Below are positions 1,940 through 10,964 of a stretch of 64,000 nucleotides of DNA, piece by piece (within the stretch, counting starts at the first letter, position 1; every line of letters starts with the position of its first letter). The notes beneath the pieces were generated by a model. That model was given only the letters and a program-made list of their open reading frames with translations, was not told the origin of the DNA and made no database searches. Source of the DNA: Thalassospira profundimaris. Lineage in GTDB: Bacteria > Pseudomonadota > Alphaproteobacteria > Rhodospirillales > Thalassospiraceae. The position numbers were made by a program, and so were the translations under genes. The stretch is taken from contig NZ_JPWF01000010.1 in the NCBI RefSeq assembly GCF_003326675.1, positions 124,001 to 188,000 on the forward strand. The letters run 5' to 3'.

Positions 1940-3187
1940 TTATTTCTTCTGGAGTTTCGCCTGTTCAAGCGACCAGTATTCCATGTCAAACAGATCAGCT
2001 TCGTTGATCGGCTGGAAGGTGCCGACTTCTTCGGCAGCATTGATGATGCGTGCGGTCTGTTCGCCAAGATCACCGGCAATACGTGCCGCCTTGTCATTGG
2101 CACCAAGCCCGATAAGGCCGACACCCTTGACCAGAACCATGCGCGGCCATGCATCAAGCATGACTTTCGTTTCACTGGCATTCGGGGCATTGCGTTCGAA
2201 ATAGGCGGTGTAACGGTTTTTGAAATCGGCCAGTGCGGCGGCGATGTCATCAACACTGGCACCCGCGCCAATGATCAGCGGGAACGGCTTTATGCGGATC
2301 ACGTGATCCGGCGTTGCGGTGCCGCGCACAGCAATGGTTTCAAGATCGCCATTTTCAAGGTAGCGGCGGATTGATGGTGTGCTGCGGAAATCAAGGGCAA
2401 GTCCACCGGCAAACGGCGAGTTGTCAGCGCGAAGGACGGTTTCAACATTCGCCGCCAGTGCCGGGTCAATGTCACGATCCGAGCTTTCCGGGCCGGGTAG
2501 GGCGATACCCTTGGCGGCCAGATAGTTTTCGGCATCGGTGACGAAATCGATCATGCGGTCATAGGATTGCTTGGCAGTATTGCCAAAGGTGAACAGGCCA
2601 TGGTTCTTAAGCCACAGACCTTCGCAATTCGGGAACTGGTCAAACAGATCAGCACCGGCAATCGACAAATCATAGCCCGGCATGACATAGGGCAGGAATG
2701 CAAGGCGATCACCATAGATTTCCCGCATGATTTCTTCGGAATGGTCCTGGTTGGCAAGCGCGAGGACGGCCGTGGAATGGGTGTGGTCGACGAAATCAAA
2801 CGGAAGATAGGCATGCAGCAATGCTTCGACCGACGGGTTCGGGGCGGACGGATCAAGCAGGTTGCTGCGCAGAAGGGCGACCATTTCCGGATCGGAAAGC
2901 TTTTTGCCTTTGCGTGCGGCATGAAGCGGGGCGAGCTTCACCGCAGGCAAACCGGGGGCTTCGATGGTTTCAAGGTCCCAGCCGCTGCCTTTAACATGCA
3001 TGATGGCTTCGCCGTCGGTATCGGTAACCTTGACCGATGTATTGCCACCGCCATGCAGAACAAGGTCGGCGACCTGACCGATGATGCGCGAGGTGTAAAC
3101 GCGCAGGCCAAGGGCCTCGGGCTGACCGGCTTCGCGGGCTTCGTTGGCATAGCGCGCGGCATCGTTATCGTTCCAAAGGTTTTCCAT
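1940..3187 (-). CDS. Class II aldolase, stand-alone; takes the place of lsrF
   Basis: This 415-residue cytoplasmic enzyme resembles the aldolase half of the bifunctional class II aldolase/short-chain dehydrogenase proteins that include rhamnulose-1-phosphate aldolases. HGGGNTSVK near residue 46 is the phosphate-binding loop. HTHSTAVLA (near 135) and the NHG of LKNHGLFTFG supply the metal-binding histidines. The chain stops where the dehydrogenase half would begin; no Rossmann GxGxxG segment or remnant follows. It is the last gene of lsrACDB, where enteric operons carry lsrF. Inference: it acts on phospho-AI-2 or a product of it, or on another sugar phosphate brought in by the same transporter. 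Simple retro-aldol chemistry does not obviously fit the LsrG product, so the substrate is open. Start is ATG 3187, with GGA eight bases upstream. Confidence 0.85.
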   Translation of the reverse strand: MENLWNDNDAARYANEAREAGQPEALGLRVYTSRIIGQVADLVLHGGGNTSVKVTDTDGEAIMHVKGSGWDLETIEAPGLPAVKLAPLHAARKGKKLSDPEMVALLRSNLLDPSAPNPSVEALLHAYLPFDFVDHTHSTAVLALANQDHSEEIMREIYGDRLAFLPYVMPGYDLSIAGADLFDQFPNCEGLWLKNHGLFTFGNTAKQSYDRMIDFVTDAENYLAAKGIALPGPESSDRDIDPALAANVETVLRADNSPFAGGLALDFRSTPSIRRYLENGDLETIAVRGTATPDHVIRIKPFPLIIGAGASVDDIAAALADFKNRYTAYFERNAPNASETKVMLDAWPRMVLVKGVGLIGLGANDKAARIAGDLGEQTARIINAAEEVGTFQPINEADLFDMEYWSLEQAKLQKK

Positions 3188-3227
3188 CAAAAATTCCGTA
3201 GCTTTAAAAATAATGACTAAACAAATC

Positions 3228-3261
3228 CGGGTACGGCAAACCCCCAGGACTGCCGTACCCG
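3228..3261 (-). other. Intercistronic stem-loop between lsrB and the aldolase
   Basis: CGGGTACGGCA (3228-3238) and TGCCGTACCCG (3251-3261) form a perfect 11-bp stem with a 12-base loop. No T-run follows on the minus strand, so it is unlikely to be a full terminator. Position just after a periplasmic binding-protein gene is typical of hairpins that protect the upstream mRNA and raise binding-protein yield over downstream genes. That role is inferred. Confidence 0.65.
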
Positions 3262-3273
3262 TTGCGCCAAAGA

Positions 3274-4299
3274 TCAGAAATCGAAGTTGTCGATATTGTC
3301 TTTGGTGAAGACGGTACGCTGCGGCAGCAGGATGATGCCGTTGCCGTCAGCTTCGTAGTCGTAGCCCTGAACGCTGTTCGGGGAAACTTCGACGGTGCCA
3401 ACACCCGGAATGTCAAGCTTGTCGCCAACATTCATCGGGCCGTTATCAAGAACATGGTTGGCAACAAAGACCGAGATTTTACCCTGTTCGGTGACGTCCC
3501 AAAGACCGAAACGCTCGACAGTGCCGCGTTTGACATAAGGACGCATGACGTTCGGGGTCGAGAAGCCGACAATGGTAACCTTGCCAGCGCGATCAAGGTT
3601 TTCAGCCGCCTGTGCAGATGCCGGAAGGGCATTGGCATCCGGTGCGATGATTGCATCAAGATCCGGATAGGCTTTCAGGATGCTTTCAGCAGTCTGAAGG
3701 GATTTCTGTGCATCGTTATAGCCGTACTGGGTGGTGACGATTTCCCAGCCCGGATGTTCAGCAGCAATTTTCGCCTTGGCGGCATTGGCCCAGGCATTCT
3801 GGTCGGTCACGGTCGGGCTGGAATAGAAGAAGGCAACCTTGGCCTTTTCCTTTTTCACGCCGTCATTTGCCATATCAACAAGAAGACCGCCGAGCTGTTC
3901 CGGGGTGCCCTGGTTGACATAGTAGGAACGGCATTCCGGCTTCACGTCACTGTCCCAGGTCATGACCAGAACGTCGCGCTTCATGGCGCGCTGCAGGGCC
4001 GGGCACAGACCGTCCGGGGAAACAGACGACAAAATGATTGAGTTGTAACCCTGGTTCACGAAGTTGTTCACGAACTGGACCTGACCGGAAACGCTTGGTT
4101 CGGTCGGGCCGTCATAGGTCACATCGATGCCCAGTTCCTTGCCGGCTGTGGTTGCGCCGTTGCCGCCACTGGTAAAGAAGCCAACACCGACAAGTTTCGG
4201 AATGAAGGCGATCTGGTTTTCGGCAAATGCCGGTGCTGCTGCCAGAAGCGAGCCGGCAAAGGCTGCTGCGGTCATCAGTTTAAGCGTTCTTCCTGACAT
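3274..4299 (-). CDS. lsrB: AI-2 periplasmic binding protein LsrB
   Basis: This 341-residue protein has a signal peptide ending near APAFA-EN (residues 1-26). The mature protein follows enteric LsrB almost residue for residue as I recall it, including [18 protein letters not shown] and the C-terminal [17 protein letters not shown]. Counting from the start, the residues reported to contact AI-2 in Salmonella LsrB all fall at the same numbers: Lys35, Asp116, Asp166, Gln167, Pro220 and Ala222. This makes AI-2 the expected ligand rather than rhamnose or ribose. It delivers the ligand to the LsrC-LsrD-LsrA importer encoded just upstream. A stem-loop follows the gene and probably stabilises its mRNA. 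Confidence 0.96.
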
Positions 4300-4310
4300 T
4301 TCTTTCCTCC

Positions 4311-5312
4311 TTATGATGCTGCGCGTTTTCGGTTCGTCGCCATTATTCGCGCAGCGACAAAATCGGCCAGCACTGCGCTTCCATGGCGCAATGCGACCGC
4401 AACCACCAGCAACGCACCGGAGAGCGCGCTGGAAATCTGACTTGGGACACCGCTCATTTGCAGGCCCTGCTGCAAATAGCCGATGACAAGGGTGGCCAGA
4501 AGGGTGCCGATGATCGAACCCTGACCGCCATAAATGGATGCACCACCAAGGACCGCTGCGGTAATCGCAGGCAGCAATGTCGCGGTGCCAAGGTCCACAC
4601 GTGCCGATCCGAAATAGGATGACAGAACAAGACCGGCAATCGCGGCAAACACGCCGGTCATGACATAAGTGATGGTTTGAATGGTTTTGATCGGAAGGCC
4701 GCTATAGCGTGCTGCATGTTCGCTTAGTCCGCACATAAAGACCGACCGGCCAAAGCGCGAATAATGCAAAACAATAAACAGGATTACCGCTTCGACCAGC
4801 AGGACCAGGAACGGTGCGGGCAAACCACCCAGTTCGAAATAGGCAAAGGACGTGAAGGCATCGGGGAAGTTGCCAATCCCCTCATAACCGCTTGCCCCGA
4901 CAACACCCGAAAGCACGGTTGCCGCGCCGCCAAACAGATACAGGCTGCCCAGTGTTACGACGAGTGGCTGAATGCGCGATACATGAATGACGGTGGCGTT
5001 AAACAGACCCGCCGCCGCACCCGCCGCAAGAGATGCCAGAATGGATACCGGCAGCGGCATGCCAAAGAAGTTGGCAATGCCAAAGACAATGGCACAAAGA
5101 CCAACCGCAGAAGCAAATGACACATCAATGCCGCCCGCGATGATCACGATGGTCAGGGGCAGGGCAACGATACCGATCTGGGCAAAGTCACTGGTGCTGT
5201 AAAGCAGGTTCGACAGATTAAGGAAGCGCGGATTGATCATGCCAAAGATCGCAAATTCGGCAATCAGCATGGCCAGAAGGGCAGTTTCCCAACGCAGAAG
5301 ATAACGTTTCAT
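4311..5312 (-). CDS. lsrD: AI-2 ABC transporter permease LsrD
   Basis: This 333-residue inner-membrane permease belongs to the branched RbsC/LsrC/LsrD family, with eight to ten hydrophobic segments. [17 protein letters not shown] in the second to third segment and [18 protein letters not shown] near the C-terminus are the family signatures; the latter includes the loop that meets the ATPase. The start codon shares one base with the lsrC stop (TAATG), so the two permease subunits are translationally coupled. It probably forms a heterodimer with LsrC. Gene order lsrA-C-D-B is that of enteric lsr operons. Confidence 0.93.
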
Positions 5313-6361
5313 TATTCACCTGCCTCCTGGGTGCGGGACTTGGACATGGTTTCGGAATTGGTTGGTGCCGATGGAGCGGGGGTGTTGTGGTGATGCACCG
5401 CATAGCGTTTTGCGCGGATGGCACGATCAACGGCCATGCGCACACGACCATCAAGCAACAGCACCAAAAGCAACACCGCACCGGCAATGAAATCGTTCCA
5501 GAAGGCAGGGATTTTCAGGAAAACCAGCGCACTGTCGATCGAGGTCAGGAAAATGACGCCGACAAAAATGCCCGGAACCGTGCCGCTGCCACCCAAAAGA
5601 CTGACACCGCCAAGAACGTTTGCTGCAATCGCTTTAAGTTCCAGTCCGTTACCGGCCTGATTGGGGATAAAGCCGATCTGTGCGGCAAAGATCATGCCCG
5701 CGATTGCGGCCAATACACCGGCGGCAACAAAGGCCGCGATCTGCACCAGTTTAACCGGAATGCCAAGATGGCGGGCAGCTTCGCGGTTATCGCCGACCGC
5801 ATAGAAATAACGCCCAAAGCGGGTCTGGCGGACAAGCAGGCCGACCACGATCAGGGATGCAATGACAATGACAGTCAGGACCGAGAAACCAACAGCACCA
5901 TTATCGGCCAATGCCTTAAGCGACAGGGGAAGTTCTTCGATCCAGTTGCCGCCGGTCAAAATCAGCATCACGCCACGAAACAGGCCAAGGGTGCCAAGGG
6001 TGGCAATGATCGACGGCACATTTAGCATGGTCACCAACAGGCCGTTGATCAGCCCGGCAACCGCCCCGGTCAAAAGGCAGGCCGCAATCGCAAGGCCAAG
6101 GCTGTGCCCGTCATTAAGCATCATGCCAAGCACCACGGCACTTAGTCCCAGTACCGAACCGCTTGAAACATCAATGTTGCGGGTCAGGATCACCAGCATG
6201 GTGCCCAGTGCCACCGACATCAGAACAAGGCTGTTGGACATGACAACCGATGCGGTTGACAACGACAGATATCCCGGCGCCGCTGCCCCGATCAGAAGAA
6301 AGGCAAGAATGGTGACAGCACACAGGGTCGCCACGCGATTACGTGCGAAGAAGTCAAGCAT
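5312..6361 (-). CDS. lsrC: AI-2 ABC transporter permease LsrC
   Basis: This 349-residue permease has family motifs RNIDVSSGSVLGLSAVVLG (third segment) and GGVSLLGGSGTVPGIFVG (ATPase-contact loop). I placed the start at ATG 6361 (MLDFFARNR), which overlaps the lsrA stop by eight bases. The longer open frame reaching to 6475 would run 114 bases into lsrA and begins with non-membrane sequence. The C-terminus carries a proline-rich tail of about 35 residues after the last membrane segment, longer than in enteric LsrC by my recollection. It works with LsrD as the import channel. Confidence 0.92.
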   Translation of the reverse strand: MLDFFARNRVATLCAVTILAFLLIGAAAPGYLSLSTASVVMSNSLVLMSVALGTMLVILTRNIDVSSGSVLGLSAVVLGMMLNDGHSLGLAIAACLLTGAVAGLINGLLVTMLNVPSIIATLGTLGLFRGVMLILTGGNWIEELPLSLKALADNGAVGFSVLTVIVIASLIVVGLLVRQTRFGRYFYAVGDNREAARHLGIPVKLVQIAAFVAAGVLAAIAGMIFAAQIGFIPNQAGNGLELKAIAANVLGGVSLLGGSGTVPGIFVGVIFLTSIDSALVFLKIPAFWNDFIAGAVLLLVLLLDGRVRMAVDRAIRAKRYAVHHHNTPAPSAPTNSETMSKSRTQEAGE

Positions 6362-7859
6362 GTGAGTGGCTCCCGGACTCGAAGGCAAGATGGGCAACGG
6401 CGTCAACCGTAACGGCGTCACGTTCCAGCGCGCCGCATTGCAGGCCATGCGCCATGACGACAACCCGGTCGGCAAGTTGTTCTATCTCGTCAAAGTCAGA
6501 CGAAATCAGAACCACGCCCAGTCCCTTGGCAGCCAGTTCACGAATAAGACGGTAAATGTCGTTGCGTGCGGCAACGTCAACCCCGCGGGTCGGCTCATCA
6601 AGGATCAGAACCCGCGGATCGGCGGCAAGGCATTTGGCCAAAAGCACTTTTTGCTGGTTGCCGCCTGACAGGCGACCCGCTTGCTGGCCTTCGCCCTCGC
6701 ACTTGATGCCAAGGCTTTGACGGAACGCATCAAAGGCCGATGTCTCGTCCTTGCGTTTCGGGAAGAAACCAAGGCGATGCATGGTGTAGCCCGACATGTT
6801 CCATGCAAGGGATGCTTCAAGGAACAGGCCGTTCTGCTGACGGTCTTCGGGAAGGTAAACCAGACCGGCATCAACGCAATCACGCGGGGAGCGTTTGGTA
6901 AGCGGCGTGCCCAGAAGATTAAGGTTGCCGCTGCGGGCCGGGCGCAAACCAAACAGGGTTTCGGCCAGTTCGGAACGACCCGCGCCAACCACGCCCGCCA
7001 GACCGACAATCTCGCCGGCACGGACATTAAAGGAAATGTCGCGGAATCCTTCGCCGCTGAAACGGTCGATTTCAAGAACCACGTCGCGGGTGCTGAAATC
7101 AATGTCGGTTTCCGCACGTGCAACCGGCTGGGCCGATTGGACGGTTTTGGTCATGGCTTCGACGATTTGATTGTCGTCATAATCGGAAAGCGGACCGGAA
7201 AGGACAATTGCACCATCGCGCAGGACGCTGATCACGCTGCAAATTTCGCGGATTTCGCGCAGCTTGTGCGAAATAAAGAAGATGCCAACACCCTGTGCCT
7301 TAAGCTGACGGACGCGATCAAACAGGGCGTTTGCCTCGTGCGGGGTCAGGGCGGATGTCGGTTCGTCAAGGATCAGCACGCTGGCCTTGCGAATAAGCCC
7401 GCGCATGATTTCGACAATCTGGCGGTCGGCAATTTCAAGGGTGGCGGCCTGCGCATCAAGATCAAGCGAAACCGCAAGATCGCGCAGCAGGGCTTCGGCC
7501 TCGGCGCGAAGGGCGCGCGGCTTGGCTTTCAGGCCAAGGCAGATATTTTCAAGAACGGACTGGTTCGGAAGAATATGTGCTTCCTGCGGGACCAGATACA
7601 GACCAAGGGACTGGGCCGCCGATGGAGATGCGGTTCCCAGAGTCTGTTCGTTGATTTCAACGGTTCCCTGATTGGCATCGACCAGACCGGCAATCGTTTT
7701 CATCAAGGTAGATTTGCCCGCACCGTTCCCGCCCAGAAGGGCATGAACCTGTCCGGCAAGCAATTCGATATTGATCCCCTTAAGAACCGGTGTGCCGCCA
7801 TAGGATTTCCATATGTCGGCAACGCGGACCGCGATCCGGGGTGTTGTATTCTGTTCCAT
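6354..7859 (-). CDS. lsrA: AI-2 ABC transporter ATP-binding protein LsrA
   Basis: This is a tandem ATPase of 501 residues. The first domain has Walker A GGNGAGKST (residues 43-51), a degenerate signature around IADRQIVEIMRG, and Walker B VLILDEPTSAL. The second has a diverged Walker A GVVGAGRSE, a canonical signature LSGGNQQKVLLAKCL and Walker B VLILDEPTRGVD. One intact and one degenerate site is normal for sugar-type double ATPases (RbsA, XylG, LsrA). It is the first gene of the leftward operon. ATG 7859 is preferred over ATG 7877, which has no ribosome-binding sequence; a GGCTCC AGG-type match lies 9 bases before 7859. Confidence 0.94.
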   Translation of the reverse strand: MEQNTTPRIAVRVADIWKSYGGTPVLKGINIELLAGQVHALLGGNGAGKSTLMKTIAGLVDANQGTVEINEQTLGTASPSAAQSLGLYLVPQEAHILPNQSVLENICLGLKAKPRALRAEAEALLRDLAVSLDLDAQAATLEIADRQIVEIMRGLIRKASVLILDEPTSALTPHEANALFDRVRQLKAQGVGIFFISHKLREIREICSVISVLRDGAIVLSGPLSDYDDNQIVEAMTKTVQSAQPVARAETDIDFSTRDVVLEIDRFSGEGFRDISFNVRAGEIVGLAGVVGAGRSELAETLFGLRPARSGNLNLLGTPLTKRSPRDCVDAGLVYLPEDRQQNGLFLEASLAWNMSGYTMHRLGFFPKRKDETSAFDAFRQSLGIKCEGEGQQAGRLSGGNQQKVLLAKCLAADPRVLILDEPTRGVDVAARNDIYRLIRELAAKGLGVVLISSDFDEIEQLADRVVVMAHGLQCGALERDAVTVDAVAHLAFESGSHSHA

Positions 7860-8096
7860 CCCTAGGAGCCTGTTCATTTGTTTTTATGAGAAACATTTGA
7901 TCACATGATTCCAAATCCGTCAATAACCATGATTTTCGAATGAAGATCATTATTTTTGGCTATATATGGCAATATTTCTGCTGCATTGCAGTATATGGCA
8001 CTGCAATTTTATGGTGTGCGCGGACCTGTTGACGTGATCATTTGTTTCATAGATAATCAAATGAACAGCGATACAGAAAATTCAGGGACTGGAAAT
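7860..8096. promoter_or_regulatory. Divergent lsrA / lsrR promoter region with inverted-repeat operator candidates
   Basis: The 237-base AT-rich gap separates two divergent units. An 11-bp element occurs twice in opposite orientation: CTGTTCATTTG at 7870-7880 and CAAATGAACAG at 8058-8068. The right element is also half of a local inverted repeat, TCATTTG (8038-8044) and CAAATGA (8058-8064), whose half-sites are 20 bases apart, two helical turns. A second related pair is AAACATTTGATCAC (7891-7904) and the complement of GTGATCATTTGTTT (8034-8047), identical at 12 of 14 positions. This layout fits binding of the tetrameric SorC-family repressor LsrR at both promoters with possible looping. The repeats are seen directly; the binding is inferred. 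Confidence 0.6.
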
Positions 8097-9041
8097 ATGG
8101 CGTCGGATGCAAACGACTGGAGTTATGCGGATGCGGAGGAGGAAACTCTAACCCGTATTGCGTGGTACTACTATAACGATGGCATGACCCAGGGTGAGAT
8201 CGGCGACAAGCTTGGTCTGTCGCGGATCAAGGTTTCCCGTCTGCTTGAAAGCGGACGTCGTACCGGCATCATTCAGGTGCGCATCAATTCCCGTTATCAG
8301 GGATGCCTTGAACACGAACAGCGTCTTCAGGATGCCTGGGGCCTGCGCGAAGTGCGGGTTGTTCCCAATCTGGAAAATGGCGATCTGAACGAACGTCTTG
8401 GCCAGGCGGCTGCGCAATTTCTGATGCAGCGTTTGGGCAATGATGACCTGCTTGCCGTGGGTTGGGGTGCAACAGTAAGCCACACCATCCAGCGTATTGG
8501 TCATATGGCCAATGAACGCAATGTGTCGCTGGTCAGTCTTACCGGCGGGGTTGCGACCTATGTCGATGGTATGCGCACGGCCAACTGGGGTAGCAGCGTT
8601 CATCTTTTGCCGGCCCCGCTTGTTGTTTCCGAGGATGCGGTCGCGACCGCCCTTATGGGCGAGCCGGGCATTTCCAATGTTCTCGAAATGGCGATGAATG
8701 CGGCCTATCAGCTTGTCGGTATTGGTGAACTTAATAACGAGTCGACCGTTGTGCGCAGCGGATATGTCACCCCGGCCGAGGTCGAGCCCCTGCGTCGCAA
8801 GGGCGCGGTTGGGGATATCTTGTGCCAATTCTTTGATGACAATGGCGATGTACTTGATCTGTCGCTGCATCAGCGCGTGATCGGTGCGCGTCTCGAATCC
8901 CTGAATAAATCAAAGAATGTCATCGCTGCCGCGGGTGGTGACAGCAAGGTGCGCGCGATCCGGGCCGCACTTAAAGGAAAATATGTCGACATCCTGATTA
9001 CGGATGAAAAAACGGCAGAAAAATTGTTGGAGGAAGTCTAG
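8097..9041 (+). CDS. lsrR: LsrR, SorC-family repressor responding to phospho-AI-2
   Basis: This 314-residue cytoplasmic regulator has an N-terminal helix-turn-helix (ARIAWYYYNDGMTQ-type segment, then GDKLGLSRIKVSRLLE, about residues 20-55) and a sugar-binding domain with LVSLTGGVATY, RKGAVGDILCQFFD and VIAAAGGDSKVRAIRAALKG. The length matches enteric LsrR (317). In the known system phospho-AI-2 made by LsrK releases LsrR from the lsr promoters. I chose ATG 8097 because AGGGA lies eight bases upstream and the length then fits. The frame is open to 7956, but earlier starts lack ribosome-binding sites and run into the operator region. lsrK follows after three bases. Confidence 0.93.
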   Translation: MASDANDWSYADAEEETLTRIAWYYYNDGMTQGEIGDKLGLSRIKVSRLLESGRRTGIIQVRINSRYQGCLEHEQRLQDAWGLREVRVVPNLENGDLNERLGQAAAQFLMQRLGNDDLLAVGWGATVSHTIQRIGHMANERNVSLVSLTGGVATYVDGMRTANWGSSVHLLPAPLVVSEDAVATALMGEPGISNVLEMAMNAAYQLVGIGELNNESTVVRSGYVTPAEVEPLRRKGAVGDILCQFFDDNGDVLDLSLHQRVIGARLESLNKSKNVIAAAGGDSKVRAIRAALKGKYVDILITDEKTAEKLLEEV

Positions 9042-9044
9042 GGA

Positions 9045-10610
9045 ATGTCAGCAGGAAATTACCTGCTTGCGATCGATGCCGGAACGGGCAGCGGTCGGGC
9101 AGTTGTGTTTGATCGGGATGGTCATCAGCTTGGCGCTTGCCAGCGTGAATGGTGGCACAAGGAAGATCCGCGTTTTCCCGGATCAATGGATTTTGATGTT
9201 GATGGCAACTGGAAGCTGATTTGCGACTGTATTGCCGGTGCGCTGTCCGAGGCCGGTGTATCGGGCGATGATATTGCCGCCGTCAGTGCCACGTCGATGC
9301 GCGAGGCCATTGTTGCCTTTGACGCGGATGGCAAGGAAATCTGGGCATGTGCCAATGTCGACGGACGTGCTGTTGATCAGGTGCGCGCGCTTAAGGAAAG
9401 CTTCCCGGGTGTCGAGGAAGACCTTTATGGCAAAACCGGCCAGACCTTTGCGCTTGGTGCGTTGCCGCGGCTTCTTTGGATCGGCCAGCAGATGCCAGAT
9501 ATCTATGAAAAGATTGATCGCATCGCGATGCTTTCGGACTGGGTGGTTGCAAGGCTTTCGGGGGTGATTGCATCTGATCCGTCAAATGCCGGGACCACCG
9601 GCATTTTCGGTTTGCGTGAACGCGACTGGCTGCCTGAGGCCATGCGTGCTGTCGGGCTTCGCGATGATATCTTTCCGCAGGCCTGTGAAACCGGCACTGC
9701 CGTTGGCCATGTAACCGCAAAGGCGGCAGCGGAAACCGGACTTTCGACCAAAACAACGGTTGTTGTCGGTGGCGGGGATTGTCAGTTGGGAACGGCCGGG
9801 CTTGGCGTTACCGGGATCGGCGATTGTGCCGTTCTTGGGGGGACGTTCTGGCAGCAGATCGTCAATGTCGATTTGACCCTGACCGACCCGTCGATGAATT
9901 TGCGCATCAACCCGCATGTGATCACCGGACTTAATCAGGCCGAAGCGATCAGTTTCTTTGTTGGTGCAGTCATGCGCTGGTTCCGGGATGCCTTTGGGCA
10001 GGAGGAACTGTCCAAGGTCGATGATCCGGGCAAAGCCTATACACTTCTGGAAAATCTGTCAAAGGATGTGCCGCTTGGGGCGCACGGTGTTATTCCGATT
10101 TTCTCGGACGTGATGCGCTATGGCAGCTGGTATCACGCAGCCCCTTCGTTCCTTAATCTAAGCATCGATCCCGAAAAATCCGGCAAGGCGGTGCTGTTCC
10201 GGGCGTTGCAGGAAAATGCCTGTATCGTCGCGGCGCGGAACCTTGATGCGATCTTTAAGCTGAGTGGTACGCGCCCTGACAAGATCGTCTTTGCTGCCGG
10301 TGCGGCAAAAAGCCCGCATTGGTCACAGATGCTTGCCGATGTGACCGGCATTCCTGTTGCAACCCCGGTGATCAAGGAGGCAACCGCACTTGGCTGTGCG
10401 GCGGCCGCCGCCGTTGGCGGTGGATTGCACAATGATCTTGCCGCCCTTGGGCGGGAATGGGTGCGCTGGGAAGGCACGTTTGAGCCAAATGACAAGGTCA
10501 AATCCGACTATGACGCATTGGGTGAACGCTGGGCGCAGGCCTATGCCGCGCAGCGCCAATTGGTCGATCAGGGGGTTACGACCTCTATGTGGAAAGCGCC
10601 GGGCATCTGA
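9045..10610 (+). CDS. lsrK: Autoinducer-2 kinase LsrK
   Basis: This 521-residue member of the FGGY carbohydrate kinase family phosphorylates the linear form of AI-2 (DPD) at its C5 hydroxyl, trapping it in the cytoplasm. The phosphate-binding start LLAIDAGTGSGRAVVFD (residues 6-22) begins the first actin-like domain. SMREAIVAFD, MLSDWVVARLSG, DPSNAGTTG and AVLGGTFWQQ follow. The ATP-site segment FAAGAAKSPHWSQMLADVTG and KEATALGCAAAAAVGGG lie near residues 410-470. These stretches match enteric LsrK far better than glycerol or xylulose kinases. Translation is probably coupled to lsrR: AGGAAG sits at the lsrR 3' end. Confidence 0.94.
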   Translation: MSAGNYLLAIDAGTGSGRAVVFDRDGHQLGACQREWWHKEDPRFPGSMDFDVDGNWKLICDCIAGALSEAGVSGDDIAAVSATSMREAIVAFDADGKEIWACANVDGRAVDQVRALKESFPGVEEDLYGKTGQTFALGALPRLLWIGQQMPDIYEKIDRIAMLSDWVVARLSGVIASDPSNAGTTGIFGLRERDWLPEAMRAVGLRDDIFPQACETGTAVGHVTAKAAAETGLSTKTTVVVGGGDCQLGTAGLGVTGIGDCAVLGGTFWQQIVNVDLTLTDPSMNLRINPHVITGLNQAEAISFFVGAVMRWFRDAFGQEELSKVDDPGKAYTLLENLSKDVPLGAHGVIPIFSDVMRYGSWYHAAPSFLNLSIDPEKSGKAVLFRALQENACIVAARNLDAIFKLSGTRPDKIVFAAGAAKSPHWSQMLADVTGIPVATPVIKEATALGCAAAAAVGGGLHNDLAALGREWVRWEGTFEPNDKVKSDYDALGERWAQAYAAQRQLVDQGVTTSMWKAPGI

Positions 10611-10658
10611 TCCCGGCAAGACATTTATCGAAGTGAATTAAGTTAAAAAGGATACATT

Positions 10659-10964
10659 ATGCTCGTACAAATGGTGCATATCGAAGTCAAACCGGGACAT
10701 GTCGACGAATTCATCGAAGCGTTTCGGATCAATTACGAAGGCACGCGCAAGAACGAGGAAGGCAACCTGCGTTTTGACGTGCTGCGCGACCCGGAAAACG
10801 AACATAAATTCATGATCTATGAAGTGTTCCGTTCCGAAGACGATTTTCAGGCCCATCGCCAGACCGAGCATTACAAGGAATGCGTGCGCCGTATCGATCC
10901 GATCATCACCGGCCCGCGCACCAAAACCTATTTCAATGCGGAAATGGCCGACTATCTGGCCTAG
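10659..10964 (+). CDS. lsrG: Phospho-AI-2 isomerase LsrG
   Basis: This is a 101-residue dimeric alpha/beta-barrel (antibiotic biosynthesis monooxygenase fold) protein. KPGHVDEFIEAFRINYEGT, EGNLRFDVLRDPEN and the end MTGP-like ITGPRTKTYFNAEMADYL correspond closely to enteric LsrG (96 residues). LsrG converts phospho-DPD to 3-hydroxy-5-phosphonooxypentane-2,4-dione, and so removes the LsrR inducer. AAGGA lies eight bases before the ATG. It is the third gene of lsrRKG, 48 bases after lsrK. In enterics it sits on the transporter operon next to lsrF; here it has moved to the regulator side. Confidence 0.92.
   Translation: MLVQMVHIEVKPGHVDEFIEAFRINYEGTRKNEEGNLRFDVLRDPENEHKFMIYEVFRSEDDFQAHRQTEHYKECVRRIDPIITGPRTKTYFNAEMADYLA

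Follow-up and report, generated by a model that had tools for sequence, protein, structure and literature searches.

Here we describe a locus for the import and breakdown of the signal molecule autoinducer-2 (AI-2), the lsr system, in which a class II aldolase stands where enteric bacteria have the thiolase LsrF. The locus lies in a stretch of 64,000 nucleotides of Thalassospira profundimaris (assembly GCF_003326675.1, contig NZ_JPWF01000010.1, positions 124,001 to 188,000 of the forward strand), referred to below as the window. We lean towards the view that the aldolase is a non-homologous replacement for the last step of AI-2 breakdown, where it would most likely cleave the product of LsrG to dihydroxyacetone phosphate (DHAP) and acetate. 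Judged from sequence, the best explanation of the aldolase-type lsr locus is that it represents an alphaproteobacterial version of AI-2 import and degradation in which a one-domain class II aldolase has replaced LsrF.

A class II aldolase in the place of LsrF

LsrF has a class I aldolase fold and is a coenzyme A (CoA)-dependent thiolase. CoA is described as its acetyl acceptor in the available text of two papers (PMC7828210, PMC8016206). The window shares with the lsr system of Escherichia coli K-12 (lsrACDBFG/lsrRK) a transporter, receptor (LsrB, 76% identical), kinase, probable regulator and isomerase, and divergent layout; it differs in having no LsrF, a metal-type aldolase in the corresponding slot, lsrG after lsrRK, and no luxS in the assembly. 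An earlier note on this DNA had described the transporter operon as ending in a gene for a class II aldolase of 415 residues with metal histidines. Indeed, the product of this gene matches PF00596 (75 bits, cut-off 22.2), with no other Pfam family found in the protein, and carries His135, His137 and His196. The note had also seen no LsrF in the locus, and had set an lsrF gene elsewhere in the genome beforehand as the refutation of its idea. The aldolase matches no LsrF model, and so is not of the DeoC/FbaB-type sequence family; furthermore, a search of the whole assembly with the LsrF model NF006081 (cut-off 297 bits) found no LsrF above the cut-off, its sole match reaching 108.5 bits. The model itself works, since its cut-off is passed in 32 of the 297 genomes examined from the order; an E. 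coli control genome falls below both the LsrF and the LsrB cut-offs and so apparently belongs to a strain that lacks lsr.

The sole weak match is a DhnA-type protein (C44:323819), which together with DeoC makes up the PF01791 matches of the assembly. It was rejected as an LsrF on its score and because it belongs to a different sugar cluster (L003:2313-12196), in which we labelled by eye a sugar ATP-binding cassette (ABC) transporter, SorC, an aldo-keto reductase, a GlpD-like protein, the DhnA aldolase and an FGGY kinase. A Rhizobiales cluster resembling this one was once listed as a putative Lsr system in the part available of PMC3420918. LuxS was not found in the assembly either (100% complete by estimate), so that this Thalassospira cell probably consumes AI-2 made by other bacteria.

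Aldolase and LsrF across lsr loci

From a scan with one genome per species (84,980 species), the best 80 of 260 lsrB-like places were taken and their gene content was assigned by tblastn. Forty-three carry the aldolase (two, L112 and L132, are cut by contig ends) and 32 carry LsrF; two hold an aldolase remnant (L128, L148), two neither gene (L119, and L115, where transposase-like frames follow lsrB up to the contig end), and one (L142) is a contig piece of a metagenome-assembled genome (MAG) with a 59% identical aldolase on another contig. None of the 80 has aldolase and LsrF together, and the idea of a one-genome oddity is rejected by the 43 aldolase loci. The search for lsrB-adjacent class II aldolases in other genomes, which the earlier note had proposed, was thus positive. 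It was so again at the level of the order, where the 297 genomes were scored against the NCBIfam LsrB and LsrF cut-offs: LsrB passes in ten, all of the genus Thalassospira, and all ten have the aldolase beside lsrB and no LsrF above its cut-off. In a separate phylum-level sample of 398 genomes, LsrB was above its cut-off in 11, with the aldolase in both alphaproteobacteria (the window genome and L190) and LsrF in the nine others. The aldolase also follows lsrB on pSymB of Sinorhizobium meliloti 1021 and in Tritonibacter, Paracoccus aminophilus, T. marina and a record labelled Roseateles. The S. meliloti locus has the same gene order as the window, with the same aldolase (63% identical) directly after lsrB, and the LsrB of this species has been crystallised with AI-2, according to the available text of PMC8016206. 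The published text available on the S. meliloti locus makes no mention of the aldolase.

The aldolase lies 62-121 bases downstream of lsrB in all 47 rows measured, a count that leaves out L178 because its aldolase sits elsewhere in the locus; lsrF occupies the slot after lsrB in E. coli and on a Lacticaseibacillus plasmid. In L178, from Devosia limi, the gene order is rearranged, and the aldolase is kept and adjoins lsrK. Of the 43 aldolase loci, 40 have LsrG, and the remaining three (L105, L116, L130) are short contigs. When LsrF was searched genome-wide on the aldolase side (49 genomes, 42 with an aldolase-type locus; L119 was left out, as was L130, which stems from the same MAG as L116), it was found above the cut-off in two of the 42, both Shinella, in another cluster. 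Conversely, a genome-wide search found the lsr-type aldolase in none of the 32 LsrF-type genomes, one of which, Yersinia similis, has a 44% identical bifunctional relative.

This distribution bears on the possibility that the aldolase serves a second sugar, such as a 5-deoxypentose, that shares the transporter and LsrK, and has no role in AI-2 breakdown. Its relatives are indeed sugar-phosphate aldolases, and LsrB and LsrK come from sugar families; however, the aldolase sits in the LsrF position, the LsrF-type genomes do without it despite having the same transporter and kinase, and no further sugar gene recurs in 51 aldolase-branch loci, all of which makes such a role improbable. The earlier note had placed the aldolase where LsrF should be and suggested that AI-2 breakdown ends differently here. 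Its placement is strengthened by the shared slot, the mutual exclusion, the retention through the depth of one large clade and the rearranged locus, and a different final reaction is our best reading of these sequences.

The aldolase and its bifunctional relatives

The best NCBIfam match of the aldolase is PRK08324.1-6 (NF006192), at 469 bits under a cut-off of 639; this model extends into a dehydrogenase, and the window aldolase stops where the dehydrogenase would start. The dehydrogenase half is absent from all 47 distinct lsr aldolases, which continue for 0-7 residues past the match, compared with at least 252 residues in relatives not cut by a locus end. The aldolase half is about 35-52% identical to proteins of PRK08324 (NF006192) and TIGR02632 (RhaD_aldol-ADH), and the PRK08324-type ones share its active-site residues; the lsr aldolases are unlike both in having no dehydrogenase half and in scoring below the family cut-offs. 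His135, His137, His196, Glu121, GGN.S (47-51; GGNTS in the window) and KGSG (66-69) are present in all 47. By comparison with FucA and RhaD, we take the histidines to be metal ligands, Glu121 to be catalytic and GGNTS and KGSG to form the phosphate loop. The 36 nearest relatives all have the histidines, Glu121 and GGN.S, with KGSG in 33 and KASG in three. Six positions separate the lsr group from its relatives (thresholds of 90% in the former and 80% in the latter), the nearest in sequence to the active-site motifs being Ser175, and 107 positions of the aldolase are invariant in 36 sequences. A structure, 3m4r, has been solved for a relative of the N-terminal part, an uncharacterised protein.

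In a tree of 88 rows (one of 89 was dropped as cut short), the 47 lsr aldolases form a single clade (support 95/90, recovered in 94% of bootstrap trees), whose nearest kin are bifunctional aldolase/dehydrogenases. An assignment as rhamnulose-1-phosphate aldolase was rejected: three rhamnose-type rows, named from identity and context, fall outside on a long branch (3.1) and have Asp in place of Glu121, and the genome's own rhamnose-type copy lies elsewhere (L209).

Since epimerases, dehydratases and decarboxylases are found among the relatives of class II aldolases, other activities come to mind: the protein might move the acetyl group to CoA or phosphate, act on phospho-AI-2 ahead of LsrG, or be an epimerase. 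Yet Glu121, presumably a catalytic residue of the aldolase type, is kept in all 47, LsrG is kept wherever the contig reaches, and PF00596 is the only family in the protein; we consider these activities quite improbable.

A proposed reaction and its alternatives

In E. coli, LsrACDB brings AI-2 into the cell, LsrK phosphorylates it and LsrG isomerises phospho-AI-2 to 3-hydroxy-5-phosphonooxypentane-2,4-dione (P-HPD, CH3-CO-CHOH-CO-CH2-O-P), and by homology the same steps would take place in Thalassospira. The three histidines of the aldolase would then coordinate a metal, and the metal would bind P-HPD by its DHAP half. A ketone instead of an alcohol means that cleavage needs an acceptor for the acetyl group; we propose that water could add to the C2 ketone, the hydrated ketone being formally an aldol, and that a retro-aldol step would leave a metal-bound DHAP enediolate, with DHAP and acetate as products rather than DHAP and an aldehyde. 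Such a step would need neither CoA nor a dehydrogenase and would be irreversible, and since no aldehyde would be made, it would explain the missing dehydrogenase half. The signal would thereby be ended and the carbon of AI-2 would enter glycolysis, in a cell without a LuxS of its own. The genes, the slot, the exclusion, the clade, the conserved residues, the missing dehydrogenase domain and the lack of LuxS and of an LsrF above the cut-off are observed; the substrate, water as the acceptor and the products we infer. Among the matches listed in our literature search, no title or abstract opening mentions an lsr locus with a class II aldolase, although subscription papers may mention the gene; the fate of AI-2 without LsrF is stated to be undetermined in the available text of PMC7828210.

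Several points weigh against this proposal. We know of no documented case of water acting as the nucleophile in a class II aldolase, and the window LsrG falls below its equivalog cut-off, so that its product here is also an assumption. A hydrate of the LsrG product has been reported, but at C4, the other of the two carbonyls (PMC8016206, in the part available). The slot rule is not universal either, as LsrF precedes lsrA in four alphaproteobacterial LsrF-type loci (L138, L151, L179 and L180, of Pseudovibrio and Pleomorphomonas). A quick tree of LsrB and LsrK, built from the 78 loci in which both proteins are long enough, splits once into loci with the aldolase or neither gene and loci of the LsrF type (SH-aLRT 99), so that the exclusion reflects one ancient event that was inherited. 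Several independent swaps are thereby rejected; a single ancient swap, retained since, is weaker evidence than repeated swaps are. Finally, four members of the clade (L115, L119, L128, L148) retain lsrB but lack the aldolase or hold it in decayed form, so that the gene is not indispensable.

This last observation would also suit a passenger gene trapped in the operon and unneeded for AI-2. However, while lost a few times, the aldolase is kept across Rhizobiaceae, Kaistiaceae, Devosiaceae, Paracoccaceae and Thalassospira, it has 107 invariant positions, and it was kept through the rearrangement in L178; we find a passenger hardly credible.

The earlier note had also raised action on a reduced intermediate. 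Here the LsrG product would first be reduced at C2 to a 5-deoxy-pentulose-1-phosphate, which the aldolase would then cleave to DHAP and acetaldehyde; Ald2 and DrdA, aldolases of the DHAP shunt, work in this way (PMC10986504 and PMC6079011, in the parts available), and 17 of 48 genomes have mtnA close to a relative of the lsr aldolase, as detailed below. In L136 and L258 the aldolase has an aldehyde dehydrogenase gene as its neighbour, as one would expect of an aldehyde product, and this belongs with the points against hydrolysis. So does an aldo-keto reductase-like gene of some Thalassospira, which lies about 1.6 kb from the aldolase in L101 and L102 and is seen by eye in the window as well (14-385); it would be a candidate for a reduction step, should there be one. 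Nonetheless, no reductase recurs in the 51 aldolase-branch loci: once the lsr genes, the aldolase and their antisense frames are set aside, the most frequent of the 22 most widespread gene groups, an ABC ATPase, occurs in 10 loci, and each of the others in at most three. Aldehyde dehydrogenase genes occur in 4 of 53 aldolase-branch loci, against 4 of 32 LsrF-type loci, and short-chain dehydrogenases are scattered over 9 of 95 lsr loci; these being single cases, the idea that the locus conserves a reductase or an aldehyde dehydrogenase was rejected. Ordinary aldol cleavage is furthermore unfavourable, with an equilibrium of about 1e-4 according to the available text of PMC6079011, and the relatives' dehydrogenase domain is gone from the lsr aldolases. 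A reduced intermediate is thus unlikely, about as much so as a second sugar, and hydrolytic cleavage of P-HPD by the aldolase remains our preferred reading.

Mirror-image loci that pair the bifunctional relatives with LsrF

We looked at the neighbourhoods of the bifunctional relatives in 48 of 140 genomes with any match, and found mtnA nearby in 17. It is present at 7 of the 20 best-scoring places (1.5-kb flanks) and at 6 of 20 places on long contigs (about 8 kb); these two sets share four genomes, which gives 13 of 36 genomes, of ten family codes. Twelve further genomes add four with mtnA, 11 of the 12 having been picked for a nearby LsrF and thus not being a fair sample. Neither mtnA nor mtnP was found in any of the 95 lsr loci. 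The compound 5-deoxyribulose-1-phosphate (CH3-CHOH-CHOH-CO-CH2-O-P) differs from P-HPD only in lacking the C4 ketone, and by analogy an aldolase of the mtnA-linked group may already accommodate the LsrG product with its carbon skeleton, phosphate and DHAP half. MtnA makes 5-methylthio- or 5-deoxyribulose-1-phosphate, and from either of these the DHAP-shunt aldolases release DHAP together with an aldehyde (PMC10986504 and PMC6079011, as far as available). Ald2 and DrdA are like the lsr aldolase in being class II enzymes that release DHAP, from a substrate that differs from P-HPD at C4 (and, for the methylthio substrate of Ald2, at C5 also); unlike it, they are described as fuculose-aldolase-like (PMC6079011, in the text available), and they are set beside it here by description only.

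The reverse pairing is also seen. None of the 32 genomes of the order with LsrF above its cut-off has LsrB above its own, and an aldolase/dehydrogenase lies within 1.5 kb of LsrF in 15 of 30 such loci. In one of them (L196:6981-12252, G064:C8), mtnP, mtnA, the aldolase/dehydrogenase and an LsrF equivalog stand in a row; the order is identical in L195, and in L192 the four genes are all nearby, these three loci being the only ones with mtn genes among the 11 larger pieces L191-L201. It is possible that the three encode a 5'-deoxynucleoside salvage that ends in thiolysis by LsrF to acetyl-CoA, as oxidation of 5-deoxyribulose-1-phosphate at C4 would yield exactly the LsrF substrate. These loci support the idea that AI-2 breakdown and 5'-deoxynucleoside salvage meet at P-HPD; no paper on the arrangement of mtn genes, aldolase/dehydrogenase and LsrF was among the matches listed. 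A broader proposal can be offered only tentatively: a class II aldolase would have turned into a carbon-carbon bond hydrolase (P-HPD to DHAP and acetate, from a ketone and water), its mirror image would be the loci that pair an aldolase/dehydrogenase with LsrF, and the two pathways would share one intermediate and exchange their last enzymes.

The window locus gene by gene

The earlier note had reported lsrA, C, D, B, R, K and G as present and intact, and these and the aldolase are all open frames where it had placed them, lsrACDB and the aldolase on the minus strand and lsrR-lsrK-lsrG divergent on the plus strand (Table 1). That the system is complete, as it also held, was upheld by equivalog cut-offs for LsrA, LsrB, LsrC and LsrK; LsrD, LsrR and LsrG have the right family as their best match but fall below its cut-off, and rest on context. 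It had also seen AI-2-specific residues in LsrB. Positions K35, D116, D166, Q167, P220 and A222, which we take to be AI-2 contacts, do not vary between the LsrB of the window and those of S. meliloti 1021, E. coli K-12, Paracoccus aminophilus and T. marina. The window LsrB shares 99% identity with its counterparts in T. povalilytica and T. profundimaris PR54-5. For LsrG, identity to the E. coli protein is 51%, and 26 positions are conserved in at least 95% of 92 LsrG rows. The aldolase starts with ATG at 3187, the listed open reading frame (ORF) being one codon longer (TTG); the start of lsrR was chosen by comparison with T. marina, its longest ORF beginning at 7956.

Table 1. Features of the lsr locus in the window.
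Feature	Position	Strand	Basis
Class II aldolase, 415 aa, lsrF position	1940..3187	-	PF00596; motifs; without dehydrogenase domain
lsrB, AI-2 periplasmic binding protein	3274..4299	-	NCBIfam 635 bits, cut-off 384
lsrD, permease	4311..5312	-	best match LsrD, 392 bits, under cut-off 500
lsrC, permease	5312..6361	-	394 bits, cut-off 388; start picked by comparison
lsrA, transporter ATPase	6354..7877	-	685 bits, cut-off 586
Divergent intergenic region	7878..8096	.	presumed LsrR-controlled promoters, from gene positions
lsrR, regulator	8097..9041	+	best match LsrR, 333 bits, under cut-off 486
lsrK, AI-2 kinase	9045..10610	+	821 bits, cut-off 528
lsrG, phospho-AI-2 isomerase	10659..10964	+	best match LsrG, 112 bits, under cut-off 135

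Observations at other loci

Several other loci present features of their own. In Shinella, an LsrF equivalog, an aldolase/dehydrogenase, a sugar ABC transporter and an FGGY kinase stand in a row outside lsr (L231:9204-17412 and L232), likely a deoxysugar pathway that reuses LsrF. The record titled Roseateles sp. XES5 (L258), marked as an unverified organism, has an LsrB 87% and an aldolase 64% identical to those of the window, as does Shinella zoogloeoides; its organism label is doubtful, the lsr locus resembling that of Shinella, and a DUF779 gene and an aldehyde dehydrogenase gene follow its aldolase. The lsr locus of Brucella cytisi (L148) is decayed, aldolase and lsrK aligning only in part and lsrB at full length. 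The end of lsrK in S. meliloti 1021 (L096:3587-5185) is out of frame, with 448 of 521 residues aligned against 517 in strain 4H41 (L123), which may be a strain-specific change or a sequencing error. A record titled as a Caldithrix MAG (L166) has LsrF and LsrG 100% identical to those of E. coli K-12, probably through contamination. The lsr-like operon with LsrF on a conjugative plasmid of Lacticaseibacillus paracasei (L257) has a cupin protein and RbsD where LsrG is expected, possibly as its replacement. Lastly, L203:7837-16141 (G035:C184) holds homologues of LsrF, LsrG, LsrR and LsrK with a divergent transporter and no LsrB by tblastn, and is possibly a second AI-2-like system.

Implications

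Sinorhizobium meliloti, the nitrogen-fixing partner of alfalfa and a model symbiont, is among the organisms concerned; the aldolase is a candidate enzyme for the last step of AI-2 breakdown in one bacterial branch that includes it. If the proposed reaction is right, the class II aldolases would gain an unusual activity, and it would become apparent how bacteria without LuxS could turn the signal of other species into food.

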